In this document: in pieces, positions 36,949 to 64,000 of the stretch
Position numbering within the stretch: the first letter of the stretch is position 1
How the letters are laid out: every line of letters starts with the position of its first letter
Source: Clostridia bacterium
GTDB lineage: Bacteria > Bacillota > Peptococcia > DRI-13 > UBA5745
DNA: 64,000 bases
NCBI GenBank assembly: GCA_018434325.1
Contig: JAHDPO010000036.1
Coordinates: forward strand, 1 to 64,000
Direction of reading: 5' to 3'
The notes under the pieces: model-generated
Databases searched by the model: none
Seen by the model: only the letters and a program-made list of their open reading frames with translations
What the model was told of the DNA's origin: nothing
Position numbers and translations under genes: made by a program

Positions 36949-37002
36949 GGAATAAGACCGCCAAAGGTTTAGCTGCAAGAGTTGCAAAAGGAGGGCAAGC
37001 CT

Positions 37003-45158: not shown

Positions 45159-45247
45159 TGTAAAGAATAATTTATTGTGATTTTCTGCTGAAAAAATTGC
45201 AAGTTTTGCAGAGGTCAGTTTTGTTTGCGGCGGCCACTGAAAAATGA

Positions 45248-45382: not shown

Positions 45383-45434
45383 GCATAGCCCCAGCCAGGG
45401 AGGAAAATGAGCAATTTTGCTCATTTCCTTCCAT

Positions 45435-46909: not shown

Positions 46910-47727
46910 TGGCCTTCCTCCTCCAAGAAGTAATCGATGCCCACATTGGTCAGGGATTTTAAGTGGCCGATGGCCGCCTCTATGGCGGCGGGAGTATTAA
47001 GAATGCTGCCGTGCTGGGGAGCAATCATCGAAATATCCAGCTTCTCGATTTCAGACAAGGCGTAATGCAAGGCTTTGGCCGAGGTCATGACCCGCCGGTG
47101 GAAATTAAGTATGCCTAGAATCTGACAGCTTTTTTGGGTAATGGGGCAGGTTTCACCGGGGACGCAGCTTTTGCAGCTGCCGTCGATCTGCGTGAATAAA
47201 TCCCAGTTGTAATCATAGCTGCCAAAAATATCGCTGCTGAACAATACTTTGGTTTTTGTATCATAAGTGACAAAGCTGCCCGGCGAATGGGAATAAGGCG
47301 TGCGGATAAACTGCAAACGCCGGCGGCTGGCAAATTCGTAGGTATAGTCCATATTCTCAATGCACTGCTTAGGAGATCTTACGGAATAATAATTAATAAA
47401 AATATTATTTTCGTAATGGGAGATGATCTGCAAATCTTTGCTGTTGATCATGGTTTCCATATGGGGAATATTGCCGCAGAGATCCGGGTCATAGTGATGA
47501 TAAATCAGGCGCCGGATCATGTTGGGACTGACGCCGGCCCGGATGACCTTCAACATCACCGTGCTGAAATCATCCCGGCTGCCGCTGTCTAGCAGCACCG
47601 CCTCACCGTCGTCCACAATCAGATAAGGGTTGCAGTGCAGGCCTATCTGCTCATCGGCAAAGCCTACCCAGTAGACGCCGTCAGCGATTTCGATATATTC
47701 ACTATAGTCCGGAGCTTGGTTGTTCAT
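46906..47727 (-). CDS. ODP-type diiron MBL-fold oxygen-sensor protein
   Basis: 273 residues from ATG 47727 (AAAGGAGAT upstream). The fold matches the flavodiiron beta-lactamase core but without flavodoxin. The metal motif reads HHYDPDL (77-83) where flavodiiron enzymes have HxExDH; further ligands are in YSHSPGS, SSDIFGS and APQHGS. A Cys-rich insertion (CKSCVPGETCPITQKSC) follows the Asp motif. ODP proteins serve as O2/Fe sensors in anaerobe signalling, for example Treponema chemotaxis. The 4-bp overlap with HD-GYP argues for oxygen-dependent c-di-GMP control. Confidence 0.88.
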   Translation of the reverse strand: MNNQAPDYSEYIEIADGVYWVGFADEQIGLHCNPYLIVDDGEAVLLDSGSRDDFSTVMLKVIRAGVSPNMIRRLIYHHYDPDLCGNIPHMETMINSKDLQIISHYENNIFINYYSVRSPKQCIENMDYTYEFASRRRLQFIRTPYSHSPGSFVTYDTKTKVLFSSDIFGSYDYNWDLFTQIDGSCKSCVPGETCPITQKSCQILGILNFHRRVMTSAKALHYALSEIEKLDISMIAPQHGSILNTPAAIEAAIGHLKSLTNVGIDYFLEEEGH

Positions 47728-47960
47728 TTTTTTATCTCCTTTGAAGCAATCCCTTTTGCCGCCTTCTTCCGGCCGGCCCGGCAAAACCCGCTAAGCATAA
47801 ATTTATAAGAATATTATAATGAAAAAAGACAGCAGATACAAGAAAAACTGCCGGCCGATTATTTTTCATCCCGCCATCATGCCATTTTCATATTCCTCAT
47901 GTATAATGTGACGTAATACTATTCTGCGATTAAAATAAGGTGGCAAGGAACGGTGTTCTC

Positions 47961-48638
47961 ATGATAAAAGTGCTGATAGTGGATGACGAGCCGGGTATCC
48001 GCACCGTGATACGGGAATATGTGGAGTTTGAAGCCAACGAAGCCTTTGAGGCCGAAAATGGCATGGAGGCGGTGAAATTATGCCGGGAACAGGATTTTGA
48101 TATCATCGTCATGGATGCGATGATGCCTAAGCTGGACGGTTTCTCAGCCTGCAAGGAGATCAAGAAGATCAAAGATATTCCTATGCTGATGCTCTCGGCC
48201 CGGGGTGAGGAATACGACAAGCTTTTTGGCTTTGAAATGGGGGCGGAGGACTACGTCGTCAAACCCTTCTCGCCAAAAGAGTTGATGGCCCGCATCAATA
48301 TTATCGCCAAGCGAAATCAGCAGCGCAAAAGCCAGGTCGCCGACGGAGGCACTCTTGTTTTCGGCGGCCTAACGATAGACTCTTTAGGCCACAATGTATT
48401 TGTAGACGGCCAAAAAGCAGAGCTGACGCCAAAGGAATATGAGCTTTTGCTATATCTGGCTGCCAATAAAGGCATTGCCCTGACCCGGGACAAACTGCTC
48501 AATGCTGTCTGGGGCTATAATTTCTTTGGCGACGACCGGACGGTGGACGCCCAGATTAAACTGCTGCGGGGAAATCTGGGACCCTATCGGGATTATATAG
48601 TGACGCTGCGAGGGGTGGGATACAAGTTTGAGATTTGA
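47961..48638 (+). CDS. OmpR-family response regulator
   Basis: 225 residues from ATG 47961. Receiver domain with VDDE acidic pair and phospho-acceptor Asp52 (VMDAMMPKLDG), conserved Lys in YVVKPFSPKEL, then the winged-helix output (LTPKEYELLLYLAANKGIAL, DDRTVDAQIKLLRGNLG). First gene of a two-component pair; the stop overlaps the kinase start by 11 bp. Confidence 0.95.
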   Translation: MIKVLIVDDEPGIRTVIREYVEFEANEAFEAENGMEAVKLCREQDFDIIVMDAMMPKLDGFSACKEIKKIKDIPMLMLSARGEEYDKLFGFEMGAEDYVVKPFSPKELMARINIIAKRNQQRKSQVADGGTLVFGGLTIDSLGHNVFVDGQKAELTPKEYELLLYLAANKGIALTRDKLLNAVWGYNFFGDDRTVDAQIKLLRGNLGPYRDYIVTLRGVGYKFEI

Positions 48639-50073
48639 CCGCAACTCCATAGGAGTCAAACTATGGCTCTACTTTATTCTATTTGCCTCTATTATATTAA
48701 CGGCCTTGTGGCTTTTGCAGATCGTTTTTATGCAAAGCTTTTACGAAGGCATGAAGACCAACGCCATTGCCGATATTGCCAACCGGATCATTGCCCTTTA
48801 TGGCAGCGATGACTTTGAGTACAGGGTGGATCGGATTACCTTTCAGAACTCGATTTTAGTCTTCGTTACCGATACGCAAGGCAGCGTGATCTACGCTTCC
48901 GACGAACATGGGGCCGGCGGTCCCGGCGCCGGCAGCCCGGGGGCCGGCAAAAGGCCTGGCCATGCCATAGATAATTGGCCCTATTCCCGGCCGCTGCCCA
49001 TTGGCTTTAACGATTTCCTGCAGCGGATCAACGAAAGCGCCGGCGATCATATCAGTTATACCGTAGAAAATTCTCGATTTGCAGGGAATTCTTTAGTTTA
49101 CGGGGCGAAAATGAACGACGCCTTACTTTACATCAGCACGCCATTAGACCCGGTAAATACCACCACAGACATTCTGCGTACCCAGTTGATCTATGTAACC
49201 ATCGCCGCCTTAGTCTTAAGCCTGATCATCGCCTTCTTTATTGCCAGAAAGTTCGCCAAGCCGGTGGCTGCTATCTCCCGGCAAGCGGGAGATTTAGCCA
49301 AAGGCAACTTTGCCGTCGGCTTTGATAAAGGCTTCTGCGCCGAGCTTGACGAGCTGGCCGTTACCCTTGACCATGCGGCCCTGGAGCTTTCTAAAGTGGA
49401 AAATCTCCGGCGTGAGTTGATGGCCAACATATCCCATGATCTGCGTACTCCTCTCACTATGGTCAAAGCCTATACCGAGATGATCCGGGACATCTCCGGC
49501 GATAATAAAGAAAAACGGGAAGCCCATTTAGCGGTGATCGCCGCCGAGGCCCAAAGGCTGGCCCTGCTGGTAAACGATATTTTGGATTTGTCGGTGATCC
49601 AGTCAGGCAATGAGTCTCTGGAGACGGCCAACATCAATCTCAGCGGTTTGGTGGAGAAAGTACTCTCCCATTTCCAGCCGGTTTTTGAGCATGAGGGCTA
49701 TTTATTGGAAAAAACCGTGGAGCCTGATCAATACGCCTGGGGCGATGAACAAAAGCTGACGCAAGTGCTCTATAATTTAATGGCCAATGCCATGAACTAT
49801 ATCGGTTCGGATCTGCGGGTGTCGGTAAAGCTTTGGGGCTGGGGCAGCCGGGTGCGCGTCGAGGTCACCGATTACGGAGCCGGCATTGCCGAAGAGGAGC
49901 TGCCCTACGTCTGGGAACGCTACTACAAGTCCAAGGAGCATAAGGGCAGCAAAGCCGGCACAGGTCTTGGCCTGTCGATTGTCAAAGGCATTTTAGAGCT
50001 TCACGGCGCCAATTTCGGCGTTGTCAGCCGTCAGGGCCAAGGGAGCACCTTTTGGTTTGAATTAAACAAATAA
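48628..50073 (+). CDS. Sensor histidine kinase
   Basis: 481 residues, TTG start with AGGGGTGGGA upstream inside the regulator gene. TM1 about 12-32, an extracellular sensor with a GAGGPGAGSPGAG linker, TM2 about 184-206, HAMP, HisKA (NISHDLRTPLTMVKAYTEM; His270), HATPase_c (NLMANAMNYI, VTDYGAGI, GTGLGLSIVKGIL). Complete and probably active. It sits before the VTC/DUF4956/Cthe_2159 genes, which it may control. The Gly-Ala linker resembles the repeat in the kinase at the left edge. Confidence 0.94.
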   Translation: MRFDRNSIGVKLWLYFILFASIILTALWLLQIVFMQSFYEGMKTNAIADIANRIIALYGSDDFEYRVDRITFQNSILVFVTDTQGSVIYASDEHGAGGPGAGSPGAGKRPGHAIDNWPYSRPLPIGFNDFLQRINESAGDHISYTVENSRFAGNSLVYGAKMNDALLYISTPLDPVNTTTDILRTQLIYVTIAALVLSLIIAFFIARKFAKPVAAISRQAGDLAKGNFAVGFDKGFCAELDELAVTLDHAALELSKVENLRRELMANISHDLRTPLTMVKAYTEMIRDISGDNKEKREAHLAVIAAEAQRLALLVNDILDLSVIQSGNESLETANINLSGLVEKVLSHFQPVFEHEGYLLEKTVEPDQYAWGDEQKLTQVLYNLMANAMNYIGSDLRVSVKLWGWGSRVRVEVTDYGAGIAEEELPYVWERYYKSKEHKGSKAGTGLGLSIVKGILELHGANFGVVSRQGQGSTFWFELNK

Positions 50074-50246
50074 CAAACAAATAAGGCCGGCGGCGGCGTC
50101 TCGCAATGGATCGAAAAGATCCGGGCGGGGCGCCTCTTTTGGTTTTCACGGAACTTACCCTTCGCTTTCATCAAGCCTTCTTGTTAAGGCGGTAAACTAG
50201 GCTCATCAGCAAAGGCCCAACACGGCCGGTAAAGGAGATGAGACAA

Positions 50247-51032
50247 ATGGCCATCGAGGTTTTTAACCGTTATGAAAATAAGTATCTGCTGGATGAAAAC
50301 ACCTTTGATAAGCTGAGGCAAAGGCTCTCCCCTTGCCTGGAGCTTGACCCCCATAACAGGAGCCGGGATACCTATGCCATTACCAACTTATATTACGATA
50401 CGGCGGATAGCTATCTAATCCGCACATCCCTGCAAAAGCCAAAATACAAGGAGAAGCTGCGGCTTAGGGCTTACGGAGTGCCCGGAGCGAATGACCTGAT
50501 CTACGCAGAAATCAAAAAAAAGGTTGCCGGCCTTACCAATAAGCGCCGCAGCCAACTGGCCCTGGCTGACGCCTACAGCTTTTTGGCTGCGGAGATTATT
50601 CCGGAAAGGCAGCCCTATCAAAACCCTCAGGTGCTGCAGGAAATTGCCTGCCTCCGCAGCCGGCAAGAGCTTATGCCGGCGCTTTACCTGGCCTATGACC
50701 GCAGAGCTTACTTCGGGGCCGGCCAGCACGATCTGCGTATATCCTTCGACTGCAATATCCGCTCCCGGCGCTTTGATCTGACCCTGGAAGCAGGCGATTA
50801 TGGCCAGCCTCTTTTGGATCAGGGCCTCTGGCTGATGGAGATTAAAACCGCCCAAAGCATTCCGGTATGGCTATGCCGCCTTTTGTCGGAATACAAGCTT
50901 TACCCCGTCAGCTTTTCAAAATATGGCAGGGAATACAAGCAAAATTTACAACAATCCCGGCCGCCCGCCGCCGTGTTTTATTTCACTGCCGCCCAAGCTT
51001 ACGGATCGTATATGCAGGCAGCCAACAATTAA
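50247..51032 (+). CDS. VTC-domain (polyphosphate polymerase-like) protein
   Basis: 261 residues from ATG 50247 (AAAGGAGAT 7 bp upstream; ATG 50238 would abut it). VTC tunnel-fold features: RYENKYLLDENTFDKLRQRL, NLYYDTADSYLIR, KEKLRLRAYG, YAEIKKKVAGLTNKRR, and YDRRAYF with KYGREYK near the end. In yeast Vtc4 this domain makes polyphosphate from ATP; bacterial homologues next to DUF4956 and CotH/Cthe_2159 genes are little studied. Gene order here matches that common cluster. Confidence 0.9.
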   Translation: MAIEVFNRYENKYLLDENTFDKLRQRLSPCLELDPHNRSRDTYAITNLYYDTADSYLIRTSLQKPKYKEKLRLRAYGVPGANDLIYAEIKKKVAGLTNKRRSQLALADAYSFLAAEIIPERQPYQNPQVLQEIACLRSRQELMPALYLAYDRRAYFGAGQHDLRISFDCNIRSRRFDLTLEAGDYGQPLLDQGLWLMEIKTAQSIPVWLCRLLSEYKLYPVSFSKYGREYKQNLQQSRPPAAVFYFTAAQAYGSYMQAANN

Positions 51033-51078
51033 CCAATAACAGGAGACTAAGCATTAACCAAACAAGGAGGCTAACTTT

Positions 51079-51762
51079 ATGTTTAATTCCATTTTTCCCA
51101 ATACGGCCGCGGATACGGTCCTCACCCTATCGGGCCTTTTGACGGCGCTGACGGCAGCTCTTTGCCTGGGCCTTTTGATCAGTTTTGTATATATGAAAAC
51201 CAATAAAAATACTCCTTCCCAAAGCTTTGCCCTGACCTTGGTAATGCTGCCGGCAGTGGTCACCATCATCATTTTGCTGGTAGGCAGCAATATTGCCAGA
51301 GCCTTTTCTCTATCCGGTGCTTTTGCCATTATCCGCTTCCGCAGCGCGCCGGGGGATGCCAAAGACATAACTTATGTGCTGTTTTCCATGGCCGTGGGAC
51401 TGGCGGCGGGAATGGGCTTTATCCTTTATGCGCTGGTGGTGGGTATTGCGCTTTGCGCAGCAATAGCTATCCTGGAGCTCTTAAATTATGGCGGTGCAAA
51501 GGGAAACTCCAAAATTTTGAAGATAACGATTCCCGAAAATCTGGATTACGCCAATGCTTTTGAGGGTGTAATGGACAAATACACCTCGGCGGCAAAGCTG
51601 CAAAAGCTTAAAACTACGGATCTGGGCAGCCTTTATGAGCTTGTGTACACCGTTACGACCAAGGCAGACATCAATGAAAAAGCCTTCATCGACGAGCTGC
51701 GCTGCCGTAACGGCAACCTGAATATCACATTGGTGATGCATGCCTCGGCCAACGAGTTTTAA
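51079..51762 (+). CDS. DUF4956 membrane protein
   Basis: 227 residues with AAGGAGG before ATG 51079. Four to five TM helices in the first ~150 residues, with the DUF4956 signature GAFAIIRFRSAPGDAKDITY, then a cytosolic ~75-residue alpha/beta domain. This family is encoded almost always beside VTC-domain and Cthe_2159 or CotH genes, as here. Function unknown; may be a channel or transporter for the polymer or its precursor. Confidence 0.9.
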   Translation: MFNSIFPNTAADTVLTLSGLLTALTAALCLGLLISFVYMKTNKNTPSQSFALTLVMLPAVVTIIILLVGSNIARAFSLSGAFAIIRFRSAPGDAKDITYVLFSMAVGLAAGMGFILYALVVGIALCAAIAILELLNYGGAKGNSKILKITIPENLDYANAFEGVMDKYTSAAKLQKLKTTDLGSLYELVYTVTTKADINEKAFIDELRCRNGNLNITLVMHASANEF

Positions 51763-51823
51763 TCTTAAATAAGATAGGCGAAAAAGATTAGCCGAAAAAA
51801 ACATAAAGGAAGGATTGTCAAAT

Positions 51824-53473
51824 ATGAAAAAAACATCTGTTTTCTTTGTCACCCTGTTTTTGACTGCCGCCATTGCGGCTTTGCCCAGCCTGGCCGGCTG
51901 CTCCGCCGCCGCAGTCGGATCGCAGACGGCAGCGGCTACGGCAGCGACGACAGCGACGGCAGGAGAAGAACCCTCTGCCTCTGAGCCCACCTCTGCCCTA
52001 TCGGCCCAAACCGCCGCTTCCGAGCCGACGCTTCAAATCAGCGAGGAAGACCTGGAGGCAGTTTGGGATGAGGCAACGGCCACCAGGATCACTTTGGAAG
52101 GAGAAAGTATTGCCGTCAGCGGCGAGGGCGCCCTGGCTGATGGCTCTATTGTTACCATAACCAAAGCAGGCGCCTATGTGGTCAGCGGTACGCTGGCCAA
52201 GGGGCAGATCCGCATTGCCGCCACCAATAAGGATATCGTAAGGCTGGTGCTCAATGATGCCCATATCACCAATCCGGCAGGAGCCCCCATCTACGCCTCC
52301 CAATGCGAAAAACTGATTATGACTCTGGCTGAGGGTACCGGCAACAGCCTCACCGACGGCGGAGCCGGCTACCTTTATGAGGATACGGCCGAGGAAGAGC
52401 CCAATGCAGCCTTATTCAGTAAGGACGACCTGACCATCAACGGCAGCGGCTCCCTGACGGTAACGGCCGGGTTCAACAACGGCGTCGGCACCAAGGATGA
52501 TCTCTTGATCGCCGGCGGCAATATCACGGTGACTGCCGCCAATCACGGCCTGCGGGGCAATGATTCCTTAACGATGCTGGAGGGCGATCTCCGGATCACG
52601 GCGGGAAAAGACGGGCTGAATACCAAAGGTAATCTCACCGTCAAGGGCGGCAACGTCAATATAGAACAGTCCGTTGAAGGCTTGGAAGGCGATAACGTCT
52701 ATATCACCGGCGGCGGTATCAGCATTGTCTCTTCCGACGACGGCATTAACGCGGCCAGCGACACCGACACCGATACGGCAGGGGCTCCCTTTGGCCAGGG
52801 CGGCGGCATCGGCGGCAACGATGGCGGCAGCCACATCATCAGCATCAGCGGCGGCGATATCACTATCTTTGCCGGCGGCGACGGCATCGACTCCAACGGC
52901 TCCATTGCCATCAGCGGCGGCAAAATCATCTCTATCATCGATTCTCAGGCCAATGGCGCTATGGACTGCGACGGCGCCTTTACATTAACCGGCGGCACCC
53001 TCATTTACGGCGGCACGGAAGCCGGCAATCTGCCTGGTGCAGACTCCACCCAAAGCTATGTTTACGTAACGGGCATATCTGCCGGCACTGAGATTACCGT
53101 AAAAAAAGAGGGAAAAACGCTGATATTCTTCACCCCATCGGTAAACTGCCAAGCCCTGGCCCTCTCCTCACCGGATATAGTGAGCGGCCAAAACTATGAA
53201 GTTTATAAAGGCGAAGACCTGCTGGCAGAGGTGACGGCGGGAACAGGCGGTCAAATGGGTGGGCCGATGAACGGCCGCGGTGGCAGAGGCGACCGGGGCG
53301 GCATGATGGCTGGCCAAGGGGGCATGAGGCCCGAAGGCCAGGCGCCGCAAGGCACACCGCCTGAAGGCGCAAGGCCCGAAGGAATGGGTCCCGGCGGCAT
53401 GCAGCCTCCAAACGGCACAGCGCCAAACAGTACAGTGCCTGAGAGTGTAGAGTCCGGAAGCACGCAGTCTTAG
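51824..53473 (+). CDS. Cthe_2159-like beta-helix lipoprotein/carbohydrate-binding protein
   Basis: 549 residues from ATG 51824 (AAAGGAAGG upstream). Signal with a lipobox-like LAGC, a Thr/Ala/Ser linker, then a DUF4353/Cthe_2159-type right-handed beta-helix: repeats such as DLTINGSGSLTVTAGFNNGV, NGSIAISGGKI and FTLTGGTLIYGG. The C-terminal ~85 residues are Gly/Met/Pro-rich (RGGRGDRGGMMAGQGG). Cthe_2159 binds acidic polysaccharides. It completes the cluster downstream of VTC and DUF4956. Confidence 0.88.
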   Translation: MKKTSVFFVTLFLTAAIAALPSLAGCSAAAVGSQTAAATAATTATAGEEPSASEPTSALSAQTAASEPTLQISEEDLEAVWDEATATRITLEGESIAVSGEGALADGSIVTITKAGAYVVSGTLAKGQIRIAATNKDIVRLVLNDAHITNPAGAPIYASQCEKLIMTLAEGTGNSLTDGGAGYLYEDTAEEEPNAALFSKDDLTINGSGSLTVTAGFNNGVGTKDDLLIAGGNITVTAANHGLRGNDSLTMLEGDLRITAGKDGLNTKGNLTVKGGNVNIEQSVEGLEGDNVYITGGGISIVSSDDGINAASDTDTDTAGAPFGQGGGIGGNDGGSHIISISGGDITIFAGGDGIDSNGSIAISGGKIISIIDSQANGAMDCDGAFTLTGGTLIYGGTEAGNLPGADSTQSYVYVTGISAGTEITVKKEGKTLIFFTPSVNCQALALSSPDIVSGQNYEVYKGEDLLAEVTAGTGGQMGGPMNGRGGRGDRGGMMAGQGGMRPEGQAPQGTPPEGARPEGMGPGGMQPPNGTAPNSTVPESVESGSTQS

Positions 53474-53538
53474 AATCAAGCTTCACATCTCCATACAATT
53501 GAGGCCATTAAAAAAGTTGCCAAGTCTCAGCTGAATGC

Positions 53539-53683
53539 GCAAAATTGCAGGTTTAAAGTATATCGCCTATTTAAAATGCGGTCTATTCTCTTGCAGATAC
53601 ACTAGATATAGCCAAATAAGGTAAAATGCAGTCAAATGCATTCTCCAAAACGGTGTTCTGGCACTTTAAACTTGAAATTTTGC
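53539..53683. repeat. Inverted-repeat element family A, copy 4
   Basis: 145 bp; left arm GCAAAATTGCAGGTTTAAAG at 53539, right arm GCACTTTAAACTTGAAATTT at 53661. Interior GATACACTAGATATAGCC in the same orientation as copy 1. Right flank TCATTTTTCAGTGGCC, followed by CACACAACTCGAGTTTCAGG, a family-B-like half element. Confidence 0.85.
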
Positions 53684-53886
53684 TCATTTTTCAGTGGCCT
53701 CCACACAACTCGAGTTTCAGGGAGCAGTTAGCCCATTCAAACGATGCTAAGCGGCCTACTGCTTTCCGCAGCAACAGTGCATGGCACATGCAATGCTGAT
53801 CCAGTGCTGATCTAGCGCTGAGAAACGAGCAATAACGACAGCGTTTTTTAATAGGTATAGTAAAACAAATACAGGAGGGCCTAAAA

Positions 53887-53922
53887 ATGCCACAGGTCAA
53901 TAAGGATGTTTTCCATTTTTGA
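53887..53922 (+). CDS. Possible 11-residue leader or truncated gene start
   Basis: MPQVNKDVFHF then stop; AGGAGGG lies 7 bp before the ATG. A terminator hairpin begins 6 bp after the stop. Either an attenuator-like leader or the first codons of a gene cut off by the junction of the mobile island. Confidence 0.35.
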   Translation: MPQVNKDVFHF

Positions 53923-53927
53923 GGTTT

Positions 53928-53958
53928 GCCGTAGGATTTTAAGTCCTACGGCTTTTCT
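53928..53958 (+). terminator. Terminator at island edge
   Basis: GCCGTAGGA (53928-53936) pairs with TCCTACGGC (53944-53952), followed by TTTTCTC. Confidence 0.75.
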
Positions 53959-53964
53959 CTTGCC

Positions 53965-54112
53965 CTAAACTCTGCCAACAAAGTTGAAGTACACGTCCAC
54001 CTGCTGGGTGTAGTTCTTCTTTTTGTACGGCTCGGAACGCTCATGCACCAGAATCTTGTCGATAAACTCCCGCACAATTTCAGGCGTTAGTATTTTACAC
54101 CTCCTTTTCGGC
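53965..54112 (-). pseudogene. C-terminal remnant of a serine recombinase (DUF4368)
   Basis: A minus-strand frame without a start encodes LTPEIVREFIDKILVHERSE and then QQVDVYFNFVGRV before the stop at 53965-53967. This is the typical C-terminus of large serine recombinases of Tn4451/TnpX-like transposons. AAGGAGG lies just before it, so the catalytic N-terminal part seems to have been deleted internally. Confidence 0.7.
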
Positions 54113-54284
54113 TGTTACACTCCTTGCGGGGAAAAATATAAAGCCTGACAGAACCGACACAGCAGGCGTCGGATTTGTCAGGCTTTGCTTCTATTCGTTC
54201 TTCTTCTTTTGATACGGCCTTTTCTGCCGTAAATTTACGGTAGCAGGTCCGGCGGGTTTTGTTAAGCTGGAGCGTGAATGTCAT
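54087..54284 (-). CDS. Hypothetical 65-residue ORF of the mobile island
   Basis: Starts MTFTLQLNKTRRTCYRKFTA and is translated through the hairpin at 54140-54186. It ends at the ribosome site of the deleted recombinase, as small accessory ORFs of such elements often do. Basic, no known domain. Weak evidence. Confidence 0.3.
   Translation of the reverse strand: MTFTLQLNKTRRTCYRKFTAEKAVSKEEERIEAKPDKSDACCVGSVRLYIFPRKECNSRKGGVKY
54140..54186 (-). terminator. Hairpin upstream of recombinase remnant
   Basis: AAAGCCTGACA (54140-54150) pairs with TGTCAGGCTTT (54176-54186); inner bases CCGAC/GTCGG extend the stem. Probably a terminator after the TetR gene on the minus strand. Confidence 0.6.
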
Positions 54285-54307
54285 CTCATAAAATTGCCCT
54301 TATATTC

Positions 54308-54928
54308 TTATGCCTCTATCCCCTCAATCAGCAAATTGCAATGCTCCACGGCCTGCACCTTGAGGTCAAAATCGGGGGCTCGGACACACCATTCATAACT
54401 AACGCCCCTTATCGCCATCACAAAATGCCGGGAAAGAGCCTCGGGCGGCAATGAAGATGTAATCTCACCGCGCCGGATGCCCTTGTCCAATATGCTGTAA
54501 AACAGCAAATAAAGCTCCCTGCCATAGCCCTTGACCGCTTCGGTGTCCACAGTTCCCGCCAGCAGCATCTGATAGATTTTTTTCATATTCTCGCAGCCGA
54601 TGGTATCCACAAGTTCATCGGCTATCTTTTGGGTCAGGGCAAGGATCACCTCTGAGGCTGGCATCTCATTGGGCAGTGCTTCCACAAAGGTTTTGTAATC
54701 CATATCGGCGCTGGCTACGTAGTCTGCAATTAAACTGGCAATCAGCGCATCCTTAGACTCGAAGTGGACATAAAAGGCCCCCTTGGTGATACCGGCTTCA
54801 TCCGTGATGTCCTCTACATTTACGTCAGAGAAGTTGCGCTCTGAAAACAGCTTTTTCGCAATCTCGTACAGCTTCTTTCTCGTTTCCGCTCCTTGCACTT
54901 TTCTTTTATCAGGCTTTTTCTCTCTCAT
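54308..54928 (-). CDS. TetR/AcrR-family regulator
   Basis: 206 residues. N-terminal HTH (RKKLYEIAKKLFSERNFSDV, EDITDEAGITKGAFYVHFES, KDALIASLIADY) and an all-helical ligand domain. It is divergent from the giant surface-protein gene 228 bp away and probably represses it, itself, or both. Lies inside the putative mobile island. Confidence 0.92.
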   Translation of the reverse strand: MREKKPDKRKVQGAETRKKLYEIAKKLFSERNFSDVNVEDITDEAGITKGAFYVHFESKDALIASLIADYVASADMDYKTFVEALPNEMPASEVILALTQKIADELVDTIGCENMKKIYQMLLAGTVDTEAVKGYGRELYLLFYSILDKGIRRGEITSSLPPEALSRHFVMAIRGVSYEWCVRAPDFDLKVQAVEHCNLLIEGIEA

Positions 54929-55156
54929 GTTTCCTCTCCTCTATTGAATTTTCTTAAAAAGCAAGTTATAATAATCTAAGTAAGTAACCTCGTTCACTAA
55001 TCTTGGTTATTCCATTTTCAGTATAGCATCTAATAGTCTCAAATTCAAGCAGTTGAGCCAAGACGGTCACAGTTCTTGGAATTTTGCTTGGCGAGGTGTG
55101 CGGGAGCAGTTGTAGATTCAATAGAAGTTTTTATAGTACGAGATGGAGGAAATGGT
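54929..55156. promoter_or_regulatory. Divergent control region of tetR and the giant surface-protein gene
   Basis: AT-rich. AGTAACC at 54983 and GGTTATT at 55005 form a spaced inverted repeat that could be the TetR operator. GGAGGAAATGGT before ATG 55157 is the surface-protein ribosome site. No gene seen. Confidence 0.4.
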
Positions 55157-58100
55157 ATGAGCAGAAGAAAAGCGTTTCACAAAATCACAGCCATGCTGCT
55201 GTCTGCAATCATGGTTGTGGGAATGACGCCTATGGTAGCGTCGGCGGATACAGGCATGCTTTCTGATGGCGCAAGCGGCGAGGTTATTGCCTTTGAAGCA
55301 CTGAAATCAGAGATTGCGGAGCAGAGCGTTCCCCTTGGCACATCCGAAGCGGATTTGGAGCTGCCGGATTCCCTGACAGCAACCATACGGCTTGCGGCTT
55401 CTACGGAAGAACCGGTACTGGATTCCGGAGAAGCTGATACGAAACCGGTCAGCGCCGATACGGTAAGCGGGTCAGCGATTGACGTTGACGAAACGGAGGA
55501 ATCCGAAATCGGCGACAGCGAGGGAGATAAAATCGCATCCCCCTCCGACATGGAAATAACCAAGGACAGCTTTGAAGCCGAACCCACGGAGAAAACCGTG
55601 GACAGCGTGACGGAAATCACCGTCCCCCTGCCTGTCACATGGGATTCATCACCGGAATACAACGGTGAAGCAGCGGGTACATATATTTTTACTCCCGAGC
55701 TGCCGAAGGAATTTACTCTTGCCAGCAGCGTGGAAGTCCCGGCAATCACCGTGACCGTTGGTGCAGTTACCATTATAGGCACAGTTACAGCCTTTGAAGA
55801 GTTGCCCGAGAATGTTCGCTGGCAAAACACCAGCGCACCGGAGTTTCCGGAAACGGTGAGCGGTACAGTAGAGGGCGAAGCGGTCGAAATCCCGGTGGTC
55901 TGGGAGGCCGACCATGACTATGACGCCGTGGCTCCCCATCGTGGCCTGTATGTGTTCACCGCCGTTTTGGGCGAGGGCTATGGCCTTGCAGACGGCGTGG
56001 AGCTGCCATGCATAACCGTGTATATTCCCCAGACAGTCGGGGGTATGATGGCGCGCATGGCGGGCGGCACAACGGACAGCCCGCTGGAAATTACCACAGC
56101 AGCACAGCTTGCCGAAATCGCCACGCTGGTGAATGCACGAGAAAATGGGCTTGAGTTGTTTTTGTTTAACAATGCGGGCGCAAGTGTCCGTCTAAAGCTT
56201 ATGAACGATATCGACCTCTCGGCGTACTCTAAAAGCGAGGGGTGGATGCCCATTGGTACAAGCGAATTTCCTTTTACCGGTATCTTTGACGGTAACGATA
56301 AAAGCATCCTTGGCTTGTACATTAACCGAAACGTTGATTATCAGGGCTTGTTCGGCTATGTTGGAAACGAGGGAGCAGTGAAAAGCCTGGGCGTGATAAA
56401 TGTAAATATCACCGGCCGAATTAATGTCGGCAGCGTGGCGGGATGGGTTCGCGGAACAGTGCAAAATTGCTACAGCACCGGCAATGTTACCGGCAGCAGT
56501 TATGTTGGCGGCGTGGCGGGAGAGGTTGACGAGGGCATGTTGGAAAACTGCTACAGCATCAGCAACGTCACCTGTACAGGCTCCGGTACAAGCGGCGCTG
56601 TTGGCGGTGTGGCGGGATGGGTTTCCGGCACGGTGCAAAACTGCTACAGCACCGGCAACGTCACGGGTGCAGGTACCGGTGTCACGATAGGAGGCATAGC
56701 AGGATGGGTCACTAATACCGGCATAATACAAAACTGCTTCAACACGGGCAGCATTACTGCATCCGGTACAGATACAGGTAATAAAATTTGTGCCGGCGGC
56801 GTAGCAGGATGGGTTTACGGCACAGTGCAAAATTGCTACAGCACCGGCAGCGTTACCGGCACCGGCACAAGCGCTTATGTGGGCGGTGTGACGGGAACTG
56901 TTTCCGGCACAGTGAAAAGCTGTGCCGCTCTGAATTCTTCGATCAGCGCAGTGGGCTACAAGGTGGGCGTGGGGCGCGTGGCGGGCGCCGACATGCGCAA
57001 CCTCCTCTCGGGCAATACCGCCTATAGCGGCATGACAGTCAATAGTGGTACGGTAAACAATACCGACACGGATAGCATAGACGGCATGAACGTGGACGCA
57101 TCAGCCATTCAAACCTTGTGGACGACCGGCGCACTGAGTGATTGGGATTCCTCCATATGGACGCTGGCGGAGGGCAAGCTGCCCGGCTTTGGCGCGGCGA
57201 TTGCTATGCCGGAGTATATCGTGGATGGCGGCGACCCGAACTTCCGTGGAGCGGGCACAAGCGGGAATCCTTTTCAGATTATCACCCCCGCCCAGCTTGC
57301 CAAGCTTGCGGAGCTTGTAAACACGGGAAACGCAAGCTATAACGCGGCACACTACAAGCTGATGAACGATCTCGACCTTTCCGGCTATGCAAGCGGGGAG
57401 GACTGGGTGCCCATCGGCACATTCAGCCATCAATTCACGGGCACCTTTGACGGCAATGGCAATAAAATTACTAACTTAACCATCAACCGCGGCACAGGCG
57501 AAAATCAAGGGCTATTCGGGTATATAGGCAGTGGCGGAGCAGTAAAAAACCTTGGTTTGACAGGCATCAGCATCAATGGTGGACAAATGGTCGGCGGCAT
57601 CGCAGGCTATATGGTAGGGGCCACATTGCAAAATTGTTACACCATGGGCAATATCACCGCTTTAGGCTCTGTCGGCGGTGTGGTCGCTTCTGTGGACTAC
57701 AGCAGCACAGTGGAATACTGCTATAGCACCTGTGAGATCAACAGCACAGACACCTCATTGGATAAAGGTGCAGGCGGTGTGGTAGGATATCTTATCCGCA
57801 GTACGGTGTCAAACTGCTACAGCACCGGAAATATTTCTCAGACAGGCACAGACCATAAGGGTTATGCCGGTGGGGTGGTGGGCAAGGTAGTCTTGGGCAA
57901 GGTACAAGACTGCTACAGCACCGGCAATATCTCCGGGGGTGAAATGGCCGGCGGCGTGGCAGGGCATGTCTACTCTGGCCTTGGAAACGGAGAATATGTC
58001 ACGGTGGAAAACTGCTACAGCACCGGCGTCGTCTCTGAAAGCTACAAAGCCGGCGGTGTAGCGGGTCAAGTCCACAGGGGCACGGTAAAAAATTGCGCTG

Positions 58101-61100
58101 CACTTAACCCTTCAGTCAGCAGCTCAGGCAACGTCGGGCGCGTGCTAACACTACCTGTGCCACAAGGGACGATTCTAAGTGGAAATTTGGCCTTTGATGG
58201 TGTGGAAGTCTTAATATATACTAGCGCGCAATCCATTACCAGCGATGCAAATGGCGTAGACGGGTTATCCAAAACCGCTGCCCAAATCAGCACTGCGGAA
58301 TTTTGGACGACGGTAAGCGGCTTTACAGCAGATTGGGATACCGATATTTGGCATATTGAATCCGGAAAACTGCCGCTTCTTAAAAATATGGGCGGACAGC
58401 ACGCTTACATGCCGGAGCACTTGCTCCCGACGGGCGCATCCCTCTTTGAGGGTGCGGGCACAAGCGGAAGCCCCTATCTTATCAAAACCGCCGCAGACCT
58501 TGCCAAGCTGGCGGAACTTGTATATTTAGGAACCTCACCTTATGCGGATTCTGGAAGGTATTACAGGCTGGAAAAAGACATCGAGCTTTCCGCCTATGCA
58601 AGCGGGGATGGCTGGATGCCCATTGGAATAAATTCGAGCTACGGATTCAAGGGCAGCTTTGACGGCAACAACAAAACCATTACCGGGCTGACGATCAACC
58701 GTCCGGCGGCTGATTACACCGGTTTATTTGGCTATCTCTACAACGACAGCAAAGTGCAGAATATCAGAATCATCGACGCAAACGTCATCGGCAAAGCCCG
58801 TGTCGGCGGCGTAGCCGGATATGCTTGGGGTGCGACAGTAGAGAACTGCGCCGTTATTGGCAACGTATCCGGTGTGGAGAGTGTCGGCGGAACAGTGGGC
58901 CGTGCCTCAAGCGGTACGGTACAAGACTGCTATAGCTCCGGCAGTGTAACCGGCAGCGGCGACTATGTTGGCGGAATAATGGGGTATCTCGAATATAATA
59001 CGACTACGGTGCAGCGCTGCTACAGTGACAGTCGTGTTTCCGGCAGTTACTATGTCGGCGGTGTGGCAGGAGAAGTTGGCAGCGGCAGCGTGAGAAACTG
59101 TTACAGCTCCGGCAATGTCACAGGCGGTAGCTTTGTCGGTGGCGTTGCGGGAGAAGTTGGCAGCGGCAGCGTGCAAAATTGCTATAGCACCGGCAGTGTT
59201 CTGGGAACGGGGTATGTTAGCGGTGTGCTGGGTTTTCTCGGCAGCGGCACAGCAAAAAATTGCGTAGCACTGAACCCTTCCATCGTTGTAGGCACATACA
59301 ATTTCGGGCGCGTAGTGGGCAAAACCACTTACGGCTCTCTTTTAAACAACTACGCGTTCAGCCGTATTCCCGGCACATGGACAAATAAAGGTCTAAGTGC
59401 AAAGGACGGCGCGGATGTGACGTCACAGACCTTGTTTGGCGACAGCTTCTGGACGACGGCAGGTAATTGGGATACTGCTGCGTGGGACGACGACGTTTGG
59501 ACATTTGCCGACGGCAAGCTGCCCATACTTACCGGGCTTGCGGGGCAGAACGGCGACGGCGGGCTATATCTGACGGCGCGGGATATTCAGTACGCCACAG
59601 TGGGCGCAACAGACGGCCTCACTTATAACGGCAGTGAGCAAATCCCAACCTTGACCATTACCTTTGATGGCGAAACCTTGGCAAAGAATACGGATTATAC
59701 CGTCTCAATCACCAGCACGGACGGCAGCGGAACCAGCGCGGGTACAAATGTCGGAACGGTGACGCTCACCATCACCGGTATCGGCAGCTTTTACGGAACA
59801 AAGAATCTTACCTACACCATAGGTAAAAAGTCGGTTACCATCACTCCCAACTCCGGTCAGGGTAAAAAATATGGTGGGATTGACCCCATACTGGTTTTTG
59901 AAAACGATAGCAGTTTGAATTCGGGGGCATTTGCTGGCGCGTTAACTCGTGTAGTGGGCGAAGGCGTGGGAATCTACGCTATTTCTCTTGGCACTTTAAG
60001 TGCGGGCGGCAACTATGAGCTTTCTCTTGCTCCGGGTACGGTCAATTTCACCATTGAACAGGCCAAGGTAGCGAGCATCAGCACAATTATGGCCAATGTC
60101 AGCAGAACCGCCTATCAAATGCGCACTGCCACAACCGCGCAGGCGGTGGTGGATGCGGTGGGTCTGCCGTCAGATGTAAGTGTCATCACCGATGGCGGCA
60201 CGGCAATGCTGCCCATCACATGGTCGACTGCCACCGCCTACAATGTCAAAAGCGCCATATATGCGGCGGTCGGTACGCTCACAGGCAACAGCAATATTGA
60301 TCCAAACGGCGTGATTGCGAGTCTAACCGTTACCGTTACGCCGGTTACGGCGGTAAACCCCACTTTCAGTGATACGCTGGTGGTCATAAACAGCGACAGC
60401 TCCGCTACAGCGGCTGAATTGGGTAGCACCATCCTGCCTACAAGCGGTTTCATTATGGCAGAGGGCCAAAGCGTTGCCTATATTGTCGATTGGAACGGCG
60501 GCGAAACGCTGGACAGAACTGCTTTGGGCACCGAGCAGACCTTTACAGGCACCATCAGCTACATAGCTCCACCCGCATGGCTGACCCTGCCGGGTGACCT
60601 TTCCGTCAGCCGCAAGGTATCTGTTACGGCAAAGCAACCCGTTACCATTGGCGGCATCACGACCGCCAATAAAACCTATGACGGCGCGGCATATGCCGCA
60701 AGCGGCACGGTGACCGTTGCAGGCGGCTCTGTTCCGGTAAATCAACTGGAATGGCTGTATGAATCCACAGACGGTGCAGGCTACAGCAACAGCACCGCAC
60801 CCACAAACGCAGGCTCATATAAGTTGACCATTTCTGTGCCGGAGAGTAACCCCAATTATGCAGGCAGCGAGATATTCAACTTTATCATCGCAAAGCGGGA
60901 AATCACCCTTGTTGCCGATAACAAGACGGTCATTAAGGGCGGCAGCCTGCCGGAGCTGGCTTATACGGTAGGCAATTTGGCTTCCGGCAAGACCAAAGCG
61001 GATGCCTTGAACGCCGAACCTGTACTGGCTTGCCCCACCTTTGATGGCAATGTGGTGGGCAGCTATCCCATTACGCTAACAGGCGGCACGGCAACGGATA

Positions 61101-62929
61101 ATTACACCATTACGACCCGCACAGACGGAACCTTGACGGTTGCGGAGCAGACCTATACCATCACCTTCAACTTAAATGGCGGAACCCGTACAGGCGGCGG
61201 TGAATTAACACAGATTGTAGCGGAGGGCGGAGCGGCAACGGCTCCCATCGTTACCCGAAATGGCTATACCTTTACCGGGTGGGATAAAGCCTTTACCAAT
61301 GTGGCCTCCAATCTGGCCGTTACGGCGGGCTGGAGCTACAACGGCGGCGGTGGCGGTGGAGGCGGTTCCTCCACTGTGCCGAGCGCTCCAAGTGTGCCTG
61401 AAAAGAAACCGGATCAGCCGGTGACGGCAACGGCTCCCGTTGCCGCGGTGAGACAAAACGGTGCGGCCAGCGCATCAATCTCCGACAAGACAGTGACCGA
61501 TGCCATTGCTAAGGCGCAGGCTGACGCAAGGGCGCAGGGCAGAACAGCAAACGGTATCTCGGTAGAGCTAGATGTCACCATGCCGCAGGGTGCAACCACC
61601 CTGACGGCCACCCTGACGGAAAATTCCCTGAACAGTCTTGTGAGCGCAGGGGTAACAAGCCTTGAAATCAGCGGCGCGCCGGTTTCTCTCGGCCTTGACC
61701 TGAACGCCCTGAAGGAAATCCAGAAGCAGAGCAGCGGCAATATCAGCATCTCCATTGCCCCGGCGACAGGTCTTTCCGCAGAGGCAAAGGCCCTCCTCGG
61801 AAACAGACCGGTATACAGCATCACCATCAGCTATGTTGATAAAAACGGAAAAACACAGACCATTACCAGCCTTGGCAGCGGAACAGCCACCCTTTCCATC
61901 CCCTACACACCGGGCAAGAATGAGGCTGTGGGCTACCTGTTCGGTGTATATGTAGACGAAAACGGTAAGGCAGTCCGCATTGACGGTTCCACTTATGATG
62001 CAAACAGCGGGAGCCTGCTCATCCCCACCGACCATTTCTCGGTGTACGGCGTGGGCTATACCGATCCAAGCGCCAAATTCACTGACATCGGCACACATTG
62101 GGGCAAGGAAGCCATTGACTATGTAGTCGGCAGAGGGCTTCTCTCCGGTACATCAAAAACTACTTTTGCACCTGACACCGCCATGACACGGGGAATGCTG
62201 GTGACAGCTCTCGGCAGACTGGCAGACATGGACGTGAAGGCATACACCACAAACAGCTTTACCGATGTGAAAACGGACAGCGTCTTCCGTCCCTATATTG
62301 AATGGGCGTACAAGAACGGCGTTGTGCAGGGCATCGGAAACAAGCAGTTTGCACCGGACCGGGCAATCACCCGTGAGGAAATTGCGGTCATTTTCGCAAA
62401 CTACGCCAAAGCCACCGGCTACAAACTGCCCGTGACCCGTGAGGCCACTGCCTACACGGACGCTTCCGGCATCGGCAGTGTTTATCAAACAGCAGTAACA
62501 GCTATGCAGCAGGCGGGCATCATGATGGGCGGCACAGGCAATAAGTTCAATCCGAAATCCAATGCCACCCGTGCGGAGGTTTCCTCCATGCTCCACCGCT
62601 ACATCAAGCTGACCATCGACCCCGCCACAGCACAGGGCTGGGCGAAAAACGATGCCGGACAGTATCTCTACTACAAGGACGGCAAAGCCCTCACTGGAAC
62701 GCAGACCGTCAACGGCGTGAAGTATTTCTTCGAAACCACCGGCGTACTGAAAACCGGCTGGGTGAAGGACGGCGACAACTGGCGCTATTACTCCGAGAAC
62801 AAGGCTGCTATGGGCTGGCTGGAGATCGACGGCAAGTGGTATTACTTTTACGCAAATGGAGCTCTCGCCAAGAATGCCAAGATTGACGGGTATGAGGTGG
62901 ATAAAAACGGCGTGAGAAAGACCAAATAA
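55157..62929 (+). CDS. Giant surface protein: GLUG repeats, MBG/Ig domains, InlB-like repeat, SLH triplet, cell-wall-binding repeats
   Basis: 2590 residues from ATG 55157; the longer frame from 55076 lacks a ribosome site. Signal peptide (HKITAMLLSAIMVVGMTPMV...). Two Ig-like segments (about 130-310), then from about 420 to 1390 three blocks of GLUG beta-helix repeats (GGVAGWVSGTVQNCYSTGNV), each ending with a W-rich SDWDSSIWTL-type seam. MBG/YDG-like domains, an InlB-like unit near 2000-2060 (YTITFNLNGGTRTGGGELTQ), a Gly hinge, three SLH domains (about 2305-2490) and two or three choline-binding-type repeats (WVKDGDNWRYYSENKAAMGW). Likely a large adhesin. Confidence 0.92.
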   Translation: MSRRKAFHKITAMLLSAIMVVGMTPMVASADTGMLSDGASGEVIAFEALKSEIAEQSVPLGTSEADLELPDSLTATIRLAASTEEPVLDSGEADTKPVSADTVSGSAIDVDETEESEIGDSEGDKIASPSDMEITKDSFEAEPTEKTVDSVTEITVPLPVTWDSSPEYNGEAAGTYIFTPELPKEFTLASSVEVPAITVTVGAVTIIGTVTAFEELPENVRWQNTSAPEFPETVSGTVEGEAVEIPVVWEADHDYDAVAPHRGLYVFTAVLGEGYGLADGVELPCITVYIPQTVGGMMARMAGGTTDSPLEITTAAQLAEIATLVNARENGLELFLFNNAGASVRLKLMNDIDLSAYSKSEGWMPIGTSEFPFTGIFDGNDKSILGLYINRNVDYQGLFGYVGNEGAVKSLGVINVNITGRINVGSVAGWVRGTVQNCYSTGNVTGSSYVGGVAGEVDEGMLENCYSISNVTCTGSGTSGAVGGVAGWVSGTVQNCYSTGNVTGAGTGVTIGGIAGWVTNTGIIQNCFNTGSITASGTDTGNKICAGGVAGWVYGTVQNCYSTGSVTGTGTSAYVGGVTGTVSGTVKSCAALNSSISAVGYKVGVGRVAGADMRNLLSGNTAYSGMTVNSGTVNNTDTDSIDGMNVDASAIQTLWTTGALSDWDSSIWTLAEGKLPGFGAAIAMPEYIVDGGDPNFRGAGTSGNPFQIITPAQLAKLAELVNTGNASYNAAHYKLMNDLDLSGYASGEDWVPIGTFSHQFTGTFDGNGNKITNLTINRGTGENQGLFGYIGSGGAVKNLGLTGISINGGQMVGGIAGYMVGATLQNCYTMGNITALGSVGGVVASVDYSSTVEYCYSTCEINSTDTSLDKGAGGVVGYLIRSTVSNCYSTGNISQTGTDHKGYAGGVVGKVVLGKVQDCYSTGNISGGEMAGGVAGHVYSGLGNGEYVTVENCYSTGVVSESYKAGGVAGQVHRGTVKNCAALNPSVSSSGNVGRVLTLPVPQGTILSGNLAFDGVEVLIYTSAQSITSDANGVDGLSKTAAQISTAEFWTTVSGFTADWDTDIWHIESGKLPLLKNMGGQHAYMPEHLLPTGASLFEGAGTSGSPYLIKTAADLAKLAELVYLGTSPYADSGRYYRLEKDIELSAYASGDGWMPIGINSSYGFKGSFDGNNKTITGLTINRPAADYTGLFGYLYNDSKVQNIRIIDANVIGKARVGGVAGYAWGATVENCAVIGNVSGVESVGGTVGRASSGTVQDCYSSGSVTGSGDYVGGIMGYLEYNTTTVQRCYSDSRVSGSYYVGGVAGEVGSGSVRNCYSSGNVTGGSFVGGVAGEVGSGSVQNCYSTGSVLGTGYVSGVLGFLGSGTAKNCVALNPSIVVGTYNFGRVVGKTTYGSLLNNYAFSRIPGTWTNKGLSAKDGADVTSQTLFGDSFWTTAGNWDTAAWDDDVWTFADGKLPILTGLAGQNGDGGLYLTARDIQYATVGATDGLTYNGSEQIPTLTITFDGETLAKNTDYTVSITSTDGSGTSAGTNVGTVTLTITGIGSFYGTKNLTYTIGKKSVTITPNSGQGKKYGGIDPILVFENDSSLNSGAFAGALTRVVGEGVGIYAISLGTLSAGGNYELSLAPGTVNFTIEQAKVASISTIMANVSRTAYQMRTATTAQAVVDAVGLPSDVSVITDGGTAMLPITWSTATAYNVKSAIYAAVGTLTGNSNIDPNGVIASLTVTVTPVTAVNPTFSDTLVVINSDSSATAAELGSTILPTSGFIMAEGQSVAYIVDWNGGETLDRTALGTEQTFTGTISYIAPPAWLTLPGDLSVSRKVSVTAKQPVTIGGITTANKTYDGAAYAASGTVTVAGGSVPVNQLEWLYESTDGAGYSNSTAPTNAGSYKLTISVPESNPNYAGSEIFNFIIAKREITLVADNKTVIKGGSLPELAYTVGNLASGKTKADALNAEPVLACPTFDGNVVGSYPITLTGGTATDNYTITTRTDGTLTVAEQTYTITFNLNGGTRTGGGELTQIVAEGGAATAPIVTRNGYTFTGWDKAFTNVASNLAVTAGWSYNGGGGGGGGSSTVPSAPSVPEKKPDQPVTATAPVAAVRQNGAASASISDKTVTDAIAKAQADARAQGRTANGISVELDVTMPQGATTLTATLTENSLNSLVSAGVTSLEISGAPVSLGLDLNALKEIQKQSSGNISISIAPATGLSAEAKALLGNRPVYSITISYVDKNGKTQTITSLGSGTATLSIPYTPGKNEAVGYLFGVYVDENGKAVRIDGSTYDANSGSLLIPTDHFSVYGVGYTDPSAKFTDIGTHWGKEAIDYVVGRGLLSGTSKTTFAPDTAMTRGMLVTALGRLADMDVKAYTTNSFTDVKTDSVFRPYIEWAYKNGVVQGIGNKQFAPDRAITREEIAVIFANYAKATGYKLPVTREATAYTDASGIGSVYQTAVTAMQQAGIMMGGTGNKFNPKSNATRAEVSSMLHRYIKLTIDPATAQGWAKNDAGQYLYYKDGKALTGTQTVNGVKYFFETTGVLKTGWVKDGDNWRYYSENKAAMGWLEIDGKWYYFYANGALAKNAKIDGYEVDKNGVRKTK

Positions 62930-62996
62930 ATACAGCCAAGGGCAAACCGTCTGAAAGGGCGGGACACGTTACAGGGTCTACGGCACATATAACGCT

Positions 62997-63042
62997 ATAT
63001 GGAGAACGCCAGTCACTTGATTGTGTCTGGCGTTCTCCATAT
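62997..63042. terminator. Terminator of the giant surface-protein gene
   Basis: ATATGGAGAACGCCAG (62997-63012) pairs perfectly with CTGGCGTTCTCCATAT (63027-63042), 14-nt loop; T-rich after it. Symmetric, so it may act in both directions. Confidence 0.85.
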
Positions 63043-63126
63043 TTAACTACAAACCAGTTGGTCTACGACAATTTCATCCGCAATCATCTGAGCCTGCGTA
63101 GAGATACGAATGCGTTCCAGCAAAAG
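63043..63126 (-). pseudogene. Possible gene-end remnant at the right side of the island
   Basis: A minus-strand frame encodes LLLERIRISTQAQMIADEIV then VDQLVCS and a stop at 63043, without start or ribosome site; an adjacent frame upstream also looks coding (EAIEKYRDLNEDF), suggesting a frameshift. Family not recognised. The rest of the 62930-63203 spacer shows only degenerate CCTTAATC words. Confidence 0.25.
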
Positions 63127-63203
63127 TCCTCATTTAAATCTCTATACTTTTCAATCGCTTCTGCTACCCTCAGCCAACCTTAGTCAGCCTTGATCAATCA
63201 ACC

Positions 63204-64000
63204 TTAATCGGCCTTAATCACCCTTACCTTGTCGCCGTCTTGCAACTGCTTGCTGCTTTGTATTACCACCTCGTCGCCGGTCGCTAAGCCCGTGGTAATC
63301 TGGAGGTAAGCATTGCGCTTCTCGCCAACGACGACCTGCCGGCGGCTGACACCGCCATCCTTCACCAGATACACCCAGGATTCATTCCCTTCGGTGGTCA
63401 CGCCTTTGGCCGGCACATAGACGGAGCCGGCGGCCTCTCCCGGAGCAATACGCACATCGGTACTGAAGCCCAGCCTGGACCAATCTACCTCCTGAGGCAA
63501 GGCTGCCTTCACTTCAAACATACCGGTTTTCCGATCGCTTACCGCTGCGATTTTCCTGACAGTGCCTGAATAAGTCTCGCCCATAGCCTGGATTTGCACT
63601 TGCAGAGTCATGCCCGGCATCAATTGGCCGATATCGGCTTCCGGCACCTGTATGACTGCCTCCAGGCCGCTGTCGTCAATAACGGTGACGGCGGGAGCCT
63701 GGGCCGTAACATAAGCGCCGATTTCCGTCTGCACCTTCGTCACCAAGCCGTCGATAGGCGAGACCACGGCGCAGTCCGCCAGCCGTTTTTCCACGATGGC
63801 TAAAGCGGCCTGGGCATTATCTACCTGGGCCTTAGCACTGTCGTAAGCGCTTTTCTGGTTGATTTGAGCTGCTTTCAATTGAGCCTCCGCCGTCTCCCAG
63901 CGGGACTTAGCCAGATTGGCGTCATTTTCCGAAACAGCCTGAGCTTCAGCAAGCACCTTAAGCCGCTCATAATTTGCTTTGGCGTCATCCCGGGCGATTT
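63204..64000 (-). CDS. RND/HlyD-type efflux adaptor (membrane fusion protein), 3' part
   Basis: The frame is open to the right edge, so the N-terminus is missing. About 265 residues are visible: coiled-coil hairpin (DANLAKSRWETAEAQLKAAQ, AQVDNAQAALAIVEKRLADC), lipoyl half (VVSPIDGLVTKVQTEIGAYV), beta-barrel (LMPGMTLQVQIQAMGETYSG) and membrane-proximal domain (GEAAGSVYVPAKGVTTEG, GLATGDEVVIQSSKQLQDGD). Such adaptors join an inner-membrane pump to export. Its pump and any partner ATPase (MacB-like) would be beyond either end or upstream of the window. Confidence 0.9.
   Translation of the reverse strand, partial: IARDDAKANYERLKVLAEAQAVSENDANLAKSRWETAEAQLKAAQINQKSAYDSAKAQVDNAQAALAIVEKRLADCAVVSPIDGLVTKVQTEIGAYVTAQAPAVTVIDDSGLEAVIQVPEADIGQLMPGMTLQVQIQAMGETYSGTVRKIAAVSDRKTGMFEVKAALPQEVDWSRLGFSTDVRIAPGEAAGSVYVPAKGVTTEGNESWVYLVKDGGVSRRQVVVGEKRNAYLQITTGLATGDEVVIQSSKQLQDGDKVRVIKAD

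Follow-up and report, generated by a model that had tools for sequence, protein, structure and literature searches.

The question raised by the locus described here is how a divergent pair of genes, for a tetR-family regulator and a giant surface protein of 2590 residues, came to stand between two chromosomal neighbours that nearly touch in a related genome. The locus lies in a stretch of 64,000 nucleotides of a Clostridia bacterium, hereafter the window (G000:C58:1-64000), taken from a 3.83-Mb draft genome of 70 contigs. A first-pass annotation had described positions 53887-63126 as a decayed integrative element with a giant adhesin as its cargo, and the analysis supports this description in the main, the tract proving wider than those bounds (53474-63203). 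We consider it probable, at roughly 0.8, that the tract is what remains of a stranded mobile-element insertion, similar to a cis-mobilizable element (CIME), whose cargo, tetR and the giant protein gene, still reads open. The reading is carried by an empty site in a congener, a copy of the pair at another site of that congener beside an intact TnpV gene, and a further copy beside conjugation-type genes in Marasmitruncus massiliensis.

One pair at two unrelated sites

Positions 46000-64000 of the window served as the query against eight genomes from the genus and family. Contig C13 of the congener G004 is collinear with the window up to 53383 and again from 63196, and there the two flanking genes, about 78-81% identical between the two genomes, are 111 bp apart, so that the junction is present without the tract. 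In the window the same genes, a Cthe_2159-domain gene (51815-53473) and an HlyD-type gene on the minus strand whose stop is at 63204, are separated by 9,730 bp.

G004 has a tetR counterpart (93% identical in amino acids) and an adhesin gene elsewhere, between hcp and an ABC permease gene, where the pair spans contigs C3 and C32, with 42 adhesin residues identical at the ends of both. The hcp and permease genes of the window genome (contig C30, L044) lie ~1.4 kb apart with no tetR-adhesin pair between them. Each congener thus lacks the pair at its counterpart of the other's site, and the pair occupies two unrelated sites. The G004 insertion site is also adjoined by an open reading frame (ORF) with collagen-like GPTGPTG repeats (L060:1-1549, on C32), a type of repeat seen in spore-surface proteins.

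A close copy beside conjugation genes

The scan of genome contigs with an alignment of four tetR sequences returned 13 loci: 11, G004 itself included, are 68-93% identical, and the other two 28-32%. A large divergent ORF stands beside tetR in nine of the 11 (one cut by a contig end, one partly masked); L071 has none, and in L068 the sequence stops 149 bp upstream of tetR. Seven of the 13 loci give clear matches to the first 60 or the last 550 residues of the window protein, and L068 gives a weak one (22%).

Relatives of both MobL and VirD4 were found in the examined flank of a single locus, that of M. massiliensis, a member of the Oscillospiraceae (L063), in which a VirD4-type gene (T4SS-DNA_transf) stands 0.7 kb, and a MobL relaxase gene 4.1 kb, from tetR. 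More SLH giants come next, and at 45-49 kb past the adhesin there are three serine-recombinase ORFs, of which one has no resolvase domain. The adhesins of Marasmitruncus and the window are 81% identical in amino acids from end to end and 85-90% identical in DNA over two main pieces, and the DNA common to both continues into the 3' flank, to 62965. For tetR, the DNA of the window is 94.8% identical to Marasmitruncus over 563 bp and 94.9% to G004 over 608 bp, whereas in the rpoB region the window genome is about 72% identical to the former and 92.1% to the latter. Such an excess of identity in tetR over the rpoB region is a clear signal of horizontal transfer. Amid the conjugation genes of Marasmitruncus there is also a reverse-transcriptase ORF (RVT_1, E 1.7e-31; L094:15328-17205, Marasmitruncus 280328-282205), possibly encoding a group II intron protein.

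Relatives of the pair within the window genome

Contig C68 of the window genome (L025, L045, L046) carries another tetR copy, 96-97% identical, with a divergent adhesin and further SLH giants, together with a LytTR/GHKL pair, a sigma-like ORF (80% identical between G004 and C68), a DinG-type helicase, a VirB4-like ATPase and three tandem serine recombinases, each with a resolvase domain. We regard C68 as a putative second conjugative element of this genome. Compared with Marasmitruncus, four of its DNA blocks, of 1.2-4.0 kb, are 91.6-92.3% identical and others 64-88%, and the LytTR and GHKL proteins are 93.5% and 95.5% identical; the VirB4-like ATPases, in contrast, share 27% and the recombinase matches about 21-32%. 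Cargo at ~92% in DNA joined to machinery this dissimilar seems to ride on different backbones.

A more distant pair, whose tetR is about 70% identical, shows that the gene family includes vertically inherited residents and that not every copy is mobile, as it keeps its neighbourhood in both congeners (on C30 in the window genome and on C3 in G004). Its tetR is broken into two frames on C30 (L026:3741-4377) and open in G004.

Remnants at the two edges

Genes for integration and transfer are gone from 53474-63203, where only the tails of a recombinase and of TnpV are left and no ORF remains that could encode a relaxase or mobilisation protein. On the right, the gene-end scrap adjoining a perfect hairpin, already noticed at first pass, proved to be the end of a TnpV gene, whose 25 residues all agree with the C-terminus of TnpV in G004. 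In G004 the adhesin gene is followed, past its 3' end, by a sigma-like ORF and then an intact TnpV (PF14198, E 2e-28). The TnpV end and hairpin together are 97.6% identical over 124 bp in the two genomes, although flanking genes reach only about 78-81%, and both their side and their orientation relative to the adhesin agree. Because this arrangement recurs at an unrelated site, TnpV seems to have travelled with the pair. When 398 genomes of the phylum were compared with the G004 TnpV DNA, the best two candidates per genome being scored, two matches were recovered, the scrap of the window and a 51-bp piece in G384. A peptide to the left of the hairpin was also considered as a gene end and was set aside, as it had no convincing relative among the compared loci.

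The left edge holds the terminator-flanked mini-ORF of the first-pass annotation, which is present as described; no relative of it was found in the genomes of relatives, in the class genomes or in the compared loci, and its pattern had no match in viral contigs. A search for the left edge in 60 relatives returned three matches, namely the genome itself, G004 and a 50-bp piece in G040, and among 46 class genomes the same three appeared again.

Next to it lies a serine recombinase that is, as had been proposed, reduced to its C-terminus: columns 26-66 of DUF4368 are all that is present of a full large serine recombinase with its resolvase, recombinase and zinc-ribbon domains. The suggestion that this remnant sits behind its own ribosome site did not survive, since no in-frame ATG, GTG or TTG follows the site, and the stretch 54092-54117 instead resembles the start of a different short ORF of G004. 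As this stretch runs directly into the recombinase tail, the boundary between them is probably a deletion junction; the homology behind tetR ends at the same point, 54120, in both G004 and Anaerovorax. A 65-aa ORF across this region (54087-54284, minus strand) was rejected as a gene, as it has no Pfam match and its conserved part is the terminator behind tetR.

Against the DUF4368 relatives compared, the tail shows 33-46% identity across 24-41 residues; its matches to two C68 enzymes and to one Marasmitruncus fragment span just 17-19 residues, and a DUF4368 search in G004 returned nothing. In the absence of a close copy in C68 or the Marasmitruncus region the tail may have been left by another element. 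The earlier idea that internal deletion of this recombinase fixed the cargo is accordingly unsupported, as is a role for it as the mover of that cargo.

The regulator, the gap and the surface protein

The divergent gap between tetR and the adhesin gene was aligned from 13 loci (three from the window genome, two from G004, one from G025 and seven named loci), and its architecture is conserved throughout, with the promoter boxes kept as close variants. In the window, the inverted repeat GTAACC-N15-GGTTAT sits between two face-to-face predicted promoters and scored best of all scanned placements, with 0.75 complementary cells against 0.71 for the next centre in a scan run without a shuffle control. 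Judging from facing promoters that flank the repeat, TetR probably represses both its own gene and that of the adhesin. In viral contigs 55 stretches fit the tetR pattern, and none of them encodes a relative.

The giant protein has exactly the 2590 residues first reported for it, and its three SLH stretches (E 1.2e-31 for the whole protein), together with choline-binding-type repeats, suggest attachment to the wall; a role in adhesion would be in keeping with its repeats. The G004 adhesin keeps both conserved ends and would be ~1,200 residues long, provided that its two contigs are joined in the way they appear to be. The family to which the protein belongs, recognized by a common SLH/choline-binding C-terminus, accounts for 34 matching stretches on 14 contigs of the window genome, the window's own included.

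The gene had also been described as written in a different style of codons from its neighbours, and the comparison of composition and codon use did not bear this out. Its GC content (0.545) and GC3 (0.600) lie within the ranges of five length-matched chunks of other window genes (0.512-0.549 and 0.575-0.654), and its codon distance of 0.063 is slightly above theirs (0.039-0.053) and close to the 0.060 of another giant gene of the window. Foreign codon use was therefore dropped as a mark of the insert, the signal being weak. That other giant (36982-43563) encodes 2194 aa with VWA domains, and a further one (4840-9246) encodes 1469 aa with Big_1 and copper-amine-oxidase-type domains.

Features of the tract are collected in Table 1. 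The ~200-bp repeat near its left end, which resembles a miniature inverted-repeat transposable element (MITE), ends in GAGGCCA...TGGCCTC and may have arrived independently; another copy lies in the window at 45226-45386, the genome has 56 matching places (pieces of a single copy being counted separately), and seven further copies were aligned at 87-90%. Rfam gave no match over 50-64 kb at gathering scores, and the two tract edges gave none against plasmid and phage records.

Table 1. Features in and around the tract (window coordinates; a dot marks features without strand)
Feature	Position	Strand	Basis
Tract without counterpart at the same site in congener G004	53474..63203	.	G004: 111 bp between the two flanking genes
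Dispersed repeat of ~200 bp, imperfect inverted ends (MITE-like)	53501..53702	.	Alignment of genome copies
Mini-ORF of 11 codons (53887-53922) and terminator-like hairpin (53928-53952), then T-run	53887..53952	+	GGAGG upstream
Large serine recombinase, C-terminal fragment (DUF4368), without start codon	53968..54096	-	DUF4368 columns 26-66, 52.6 bits
Shine-Dalgarno stretch like the start of another short G004 ORF	54092..54117	-	88% over 26 bp, E only 0.004
Conserved block behind tetR with terminator hairpin (54140-54186)	54120..54256	-	90% identical in G004
tetR-family regulator, 206 aa	54308..54928	-	TetR_N E 7.7e-14
Predicted adhesin promoter, TTGAAT-17-TATAAT	54944..54972	+	Sequence reading; conserved in gap alignment
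Inverted repeat GTAACC-N15-GGTTAT, proposed TetR operator	54984..55010	.	Gap alignment
Predicted tetR promoter, TTGAAT-17-TATACT, facing the adhesin promoter	55020..55048	-	Sequence reading; gap alignment
Giant surface protein, 2590 aa (ATG at 55157 to stop at 62929): GLUG, MBG_2, List_Bact_rpt, 3 SLH, choline-binding-type repeats	55157..62929	+	Domain search
Hairpin immediately behind the TnpV stop, 16-bp perfect arms, common to G004	62997..63042	.	
tnpV 3' scrap, last 25 codons and stop	63043..63120	-	Match to G004 TnpV

Proposed history and its alternatives

From these remains we infer the following course of events. An integrative and conjugative element (ICE), or a mobilizable element of the Tn4451/Tn610x type, carrying the pair would have inserted in the interval between Cthe_2159 and hlyD. 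Deletion would then have stripped it of tnpV and of its recombinase and transfer genes while the cargo stayed open-reading, leaving the recombinase tail on the left and the tnpV tail on the right as the sole leftovers of the element. TetR, bound to the inverted repeat between the facing sigma-70-type promoters, would shut off both tetR and the surface protein gene until a signal releases it, and the protein would then be exported, held to the wall by its SLH and choline-binding-type repeats, and would display a repeat-rich, adhesin-like stalk.

Several observations weigh against a stranded insertion. Only one congener, G004, is informative on the empty site, the contig of G007 ending behind its Cthe_2159 gene and the outgroup G008 having no hlyD relative within the 4.5 kb examined behind its own, so that a loss in G004 rather than a gain here is excluded by other evidence only. 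Of the 13 tetR loci only one has MobL and VirD4 relatives in the examined flank, and while the window pair itself was not found in synteny without a recombinase in relatives, which the first-pass annotation had named as the finding that would speak against it, the related second pair was, and the stretches examined around it on C30 and C3 showed no relative of MobL, VirD4 or a recombinase. At the tract no attachment repeats were recognised and no convincing target-site duplication was found; the edges share only words of 8-9 bp, two of which were found, as chance would allow, and the very short repeats of serine recombinases would be beyond recognition. To these are added the ordinary codon use of the adhesin, the modest lead of the operator repeat over other placements, the distance of the recombinase tail from the enzymes of C68 and Marasmitruncus, and TnpV, which was not found in the stretches of either that were examined.

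The last two points also favour two separate histories, in which the pair arrived by homologous recombination or as part of an element, while a different, mobilizable transposon beside it, later deleted, left the recombinase and TnpV tails as scars. The many paralogues with common ends in the genome (34 matches on 14 contigs) speak for this as well, but TnpV has the same position and orientation relative to the pair at the unrelated site of G004, and we hold this account to be somewhat unlikely. That the pair is an ordinary chromosomal one, duplicated within the genus and lost or moved in G004, with incidental mobile scraps, would agree with its codon use and with the vertically inherited, syntenic pair of C30 and C3; it is improbable in view of tetR DNA at 94.8% to an Oscillospiraceae species whose rpoB region is at 72%, the close copy beside VirD4 and MobL, and mobile scraps at both sides. 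The three tandem recombinases of C68, all with resolvase domains and in the same genome, might be thought to mobilise the tract in trans as a still functional element, an idea to which we give very little credence, given that the attachment repeats were not recognised and that the recombinase tail belongs to another subfamily. The stranded insertion remains our preferred reading.

A wider proposal, which we offer tentatively and think rather less than evenly likely, is that the tetR-giant protein pair, the LytTR/GHKL genes and the further SLH giants form a self-regulated surface cassette that is traded among the backbones of conjugative elements, with the middle of the protein swapped between conserved ends, the stranded copies of the window and G004 being its resting stages.

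Relation to known elements

The finding is of a known kind, since kits of TnpV and recombinase, a surface protein on CTn1, CIMEs and the Esp island have all been described. The clostridial mobilizable transposons Tn4451 and Tn6104-Tn6106 are among the nearest, in their kit of TnpV, a large serine recombinase and a sigma-like ORF; Tn6104-Tn6106 have TnpV, serine recombinases and sigma-like ORFs, and Tn6106 is reported to have a TnpV homologue and a single recombinase, the latter on its right side (PMC3158075). The window tract differs from them in having only the TnpV and recombinase tails, no relaxase, and tetR and a giant surface protein as cargo. A surface protein as cargo is also predicted in the accessory region of Clostridioides difficile CTn1, and in one lineage a CTn1-like element is described as having become fixed when xis was lost (PMC3158075); that protein, however, is LPXTG-anchored with Cna B repeats, whereas the window protein carries repeats of the SLH and choline-binding types and is paired with a TetR, and the decay of the window tract is far more complete. 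The term CIME denotes a decayed element that retains its att sites (PMC5704250). In Enterococcus faecium, the large surface protein Esp is likewise found on transferable DNA, the esp island, although protein and element are unrelated to those of the window and there is no decay (PMC2858755).

The apparent ICE of M. massiliensis (NZ_FYDE01000005.1, about 246-352 kb) resembles the tract in its close copy of the tetR-adhesin pair and differs from it in having VirD4, MobL, VirB4-like and recombinase genes, TnpV not being found within 225-385 kb. Neither SLH/GLUG proteins on elements of the ICE type or of the integrative and mobilizable (IME) type, nor an ICE in Marasmitruncus, were met in searches of an open-licence library.

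Surface proteins determine what a bacterium sticks to, and here one clostridial genus has the regulated pair next to conjugation genes, the window genome has the same pair with other recombinase genes, and in the chromosomes of two congeners it lies stranded. The system thereby lets one ask how cargo moves among the backbones of mobile elements and how it persists after its vehicle has decayed.

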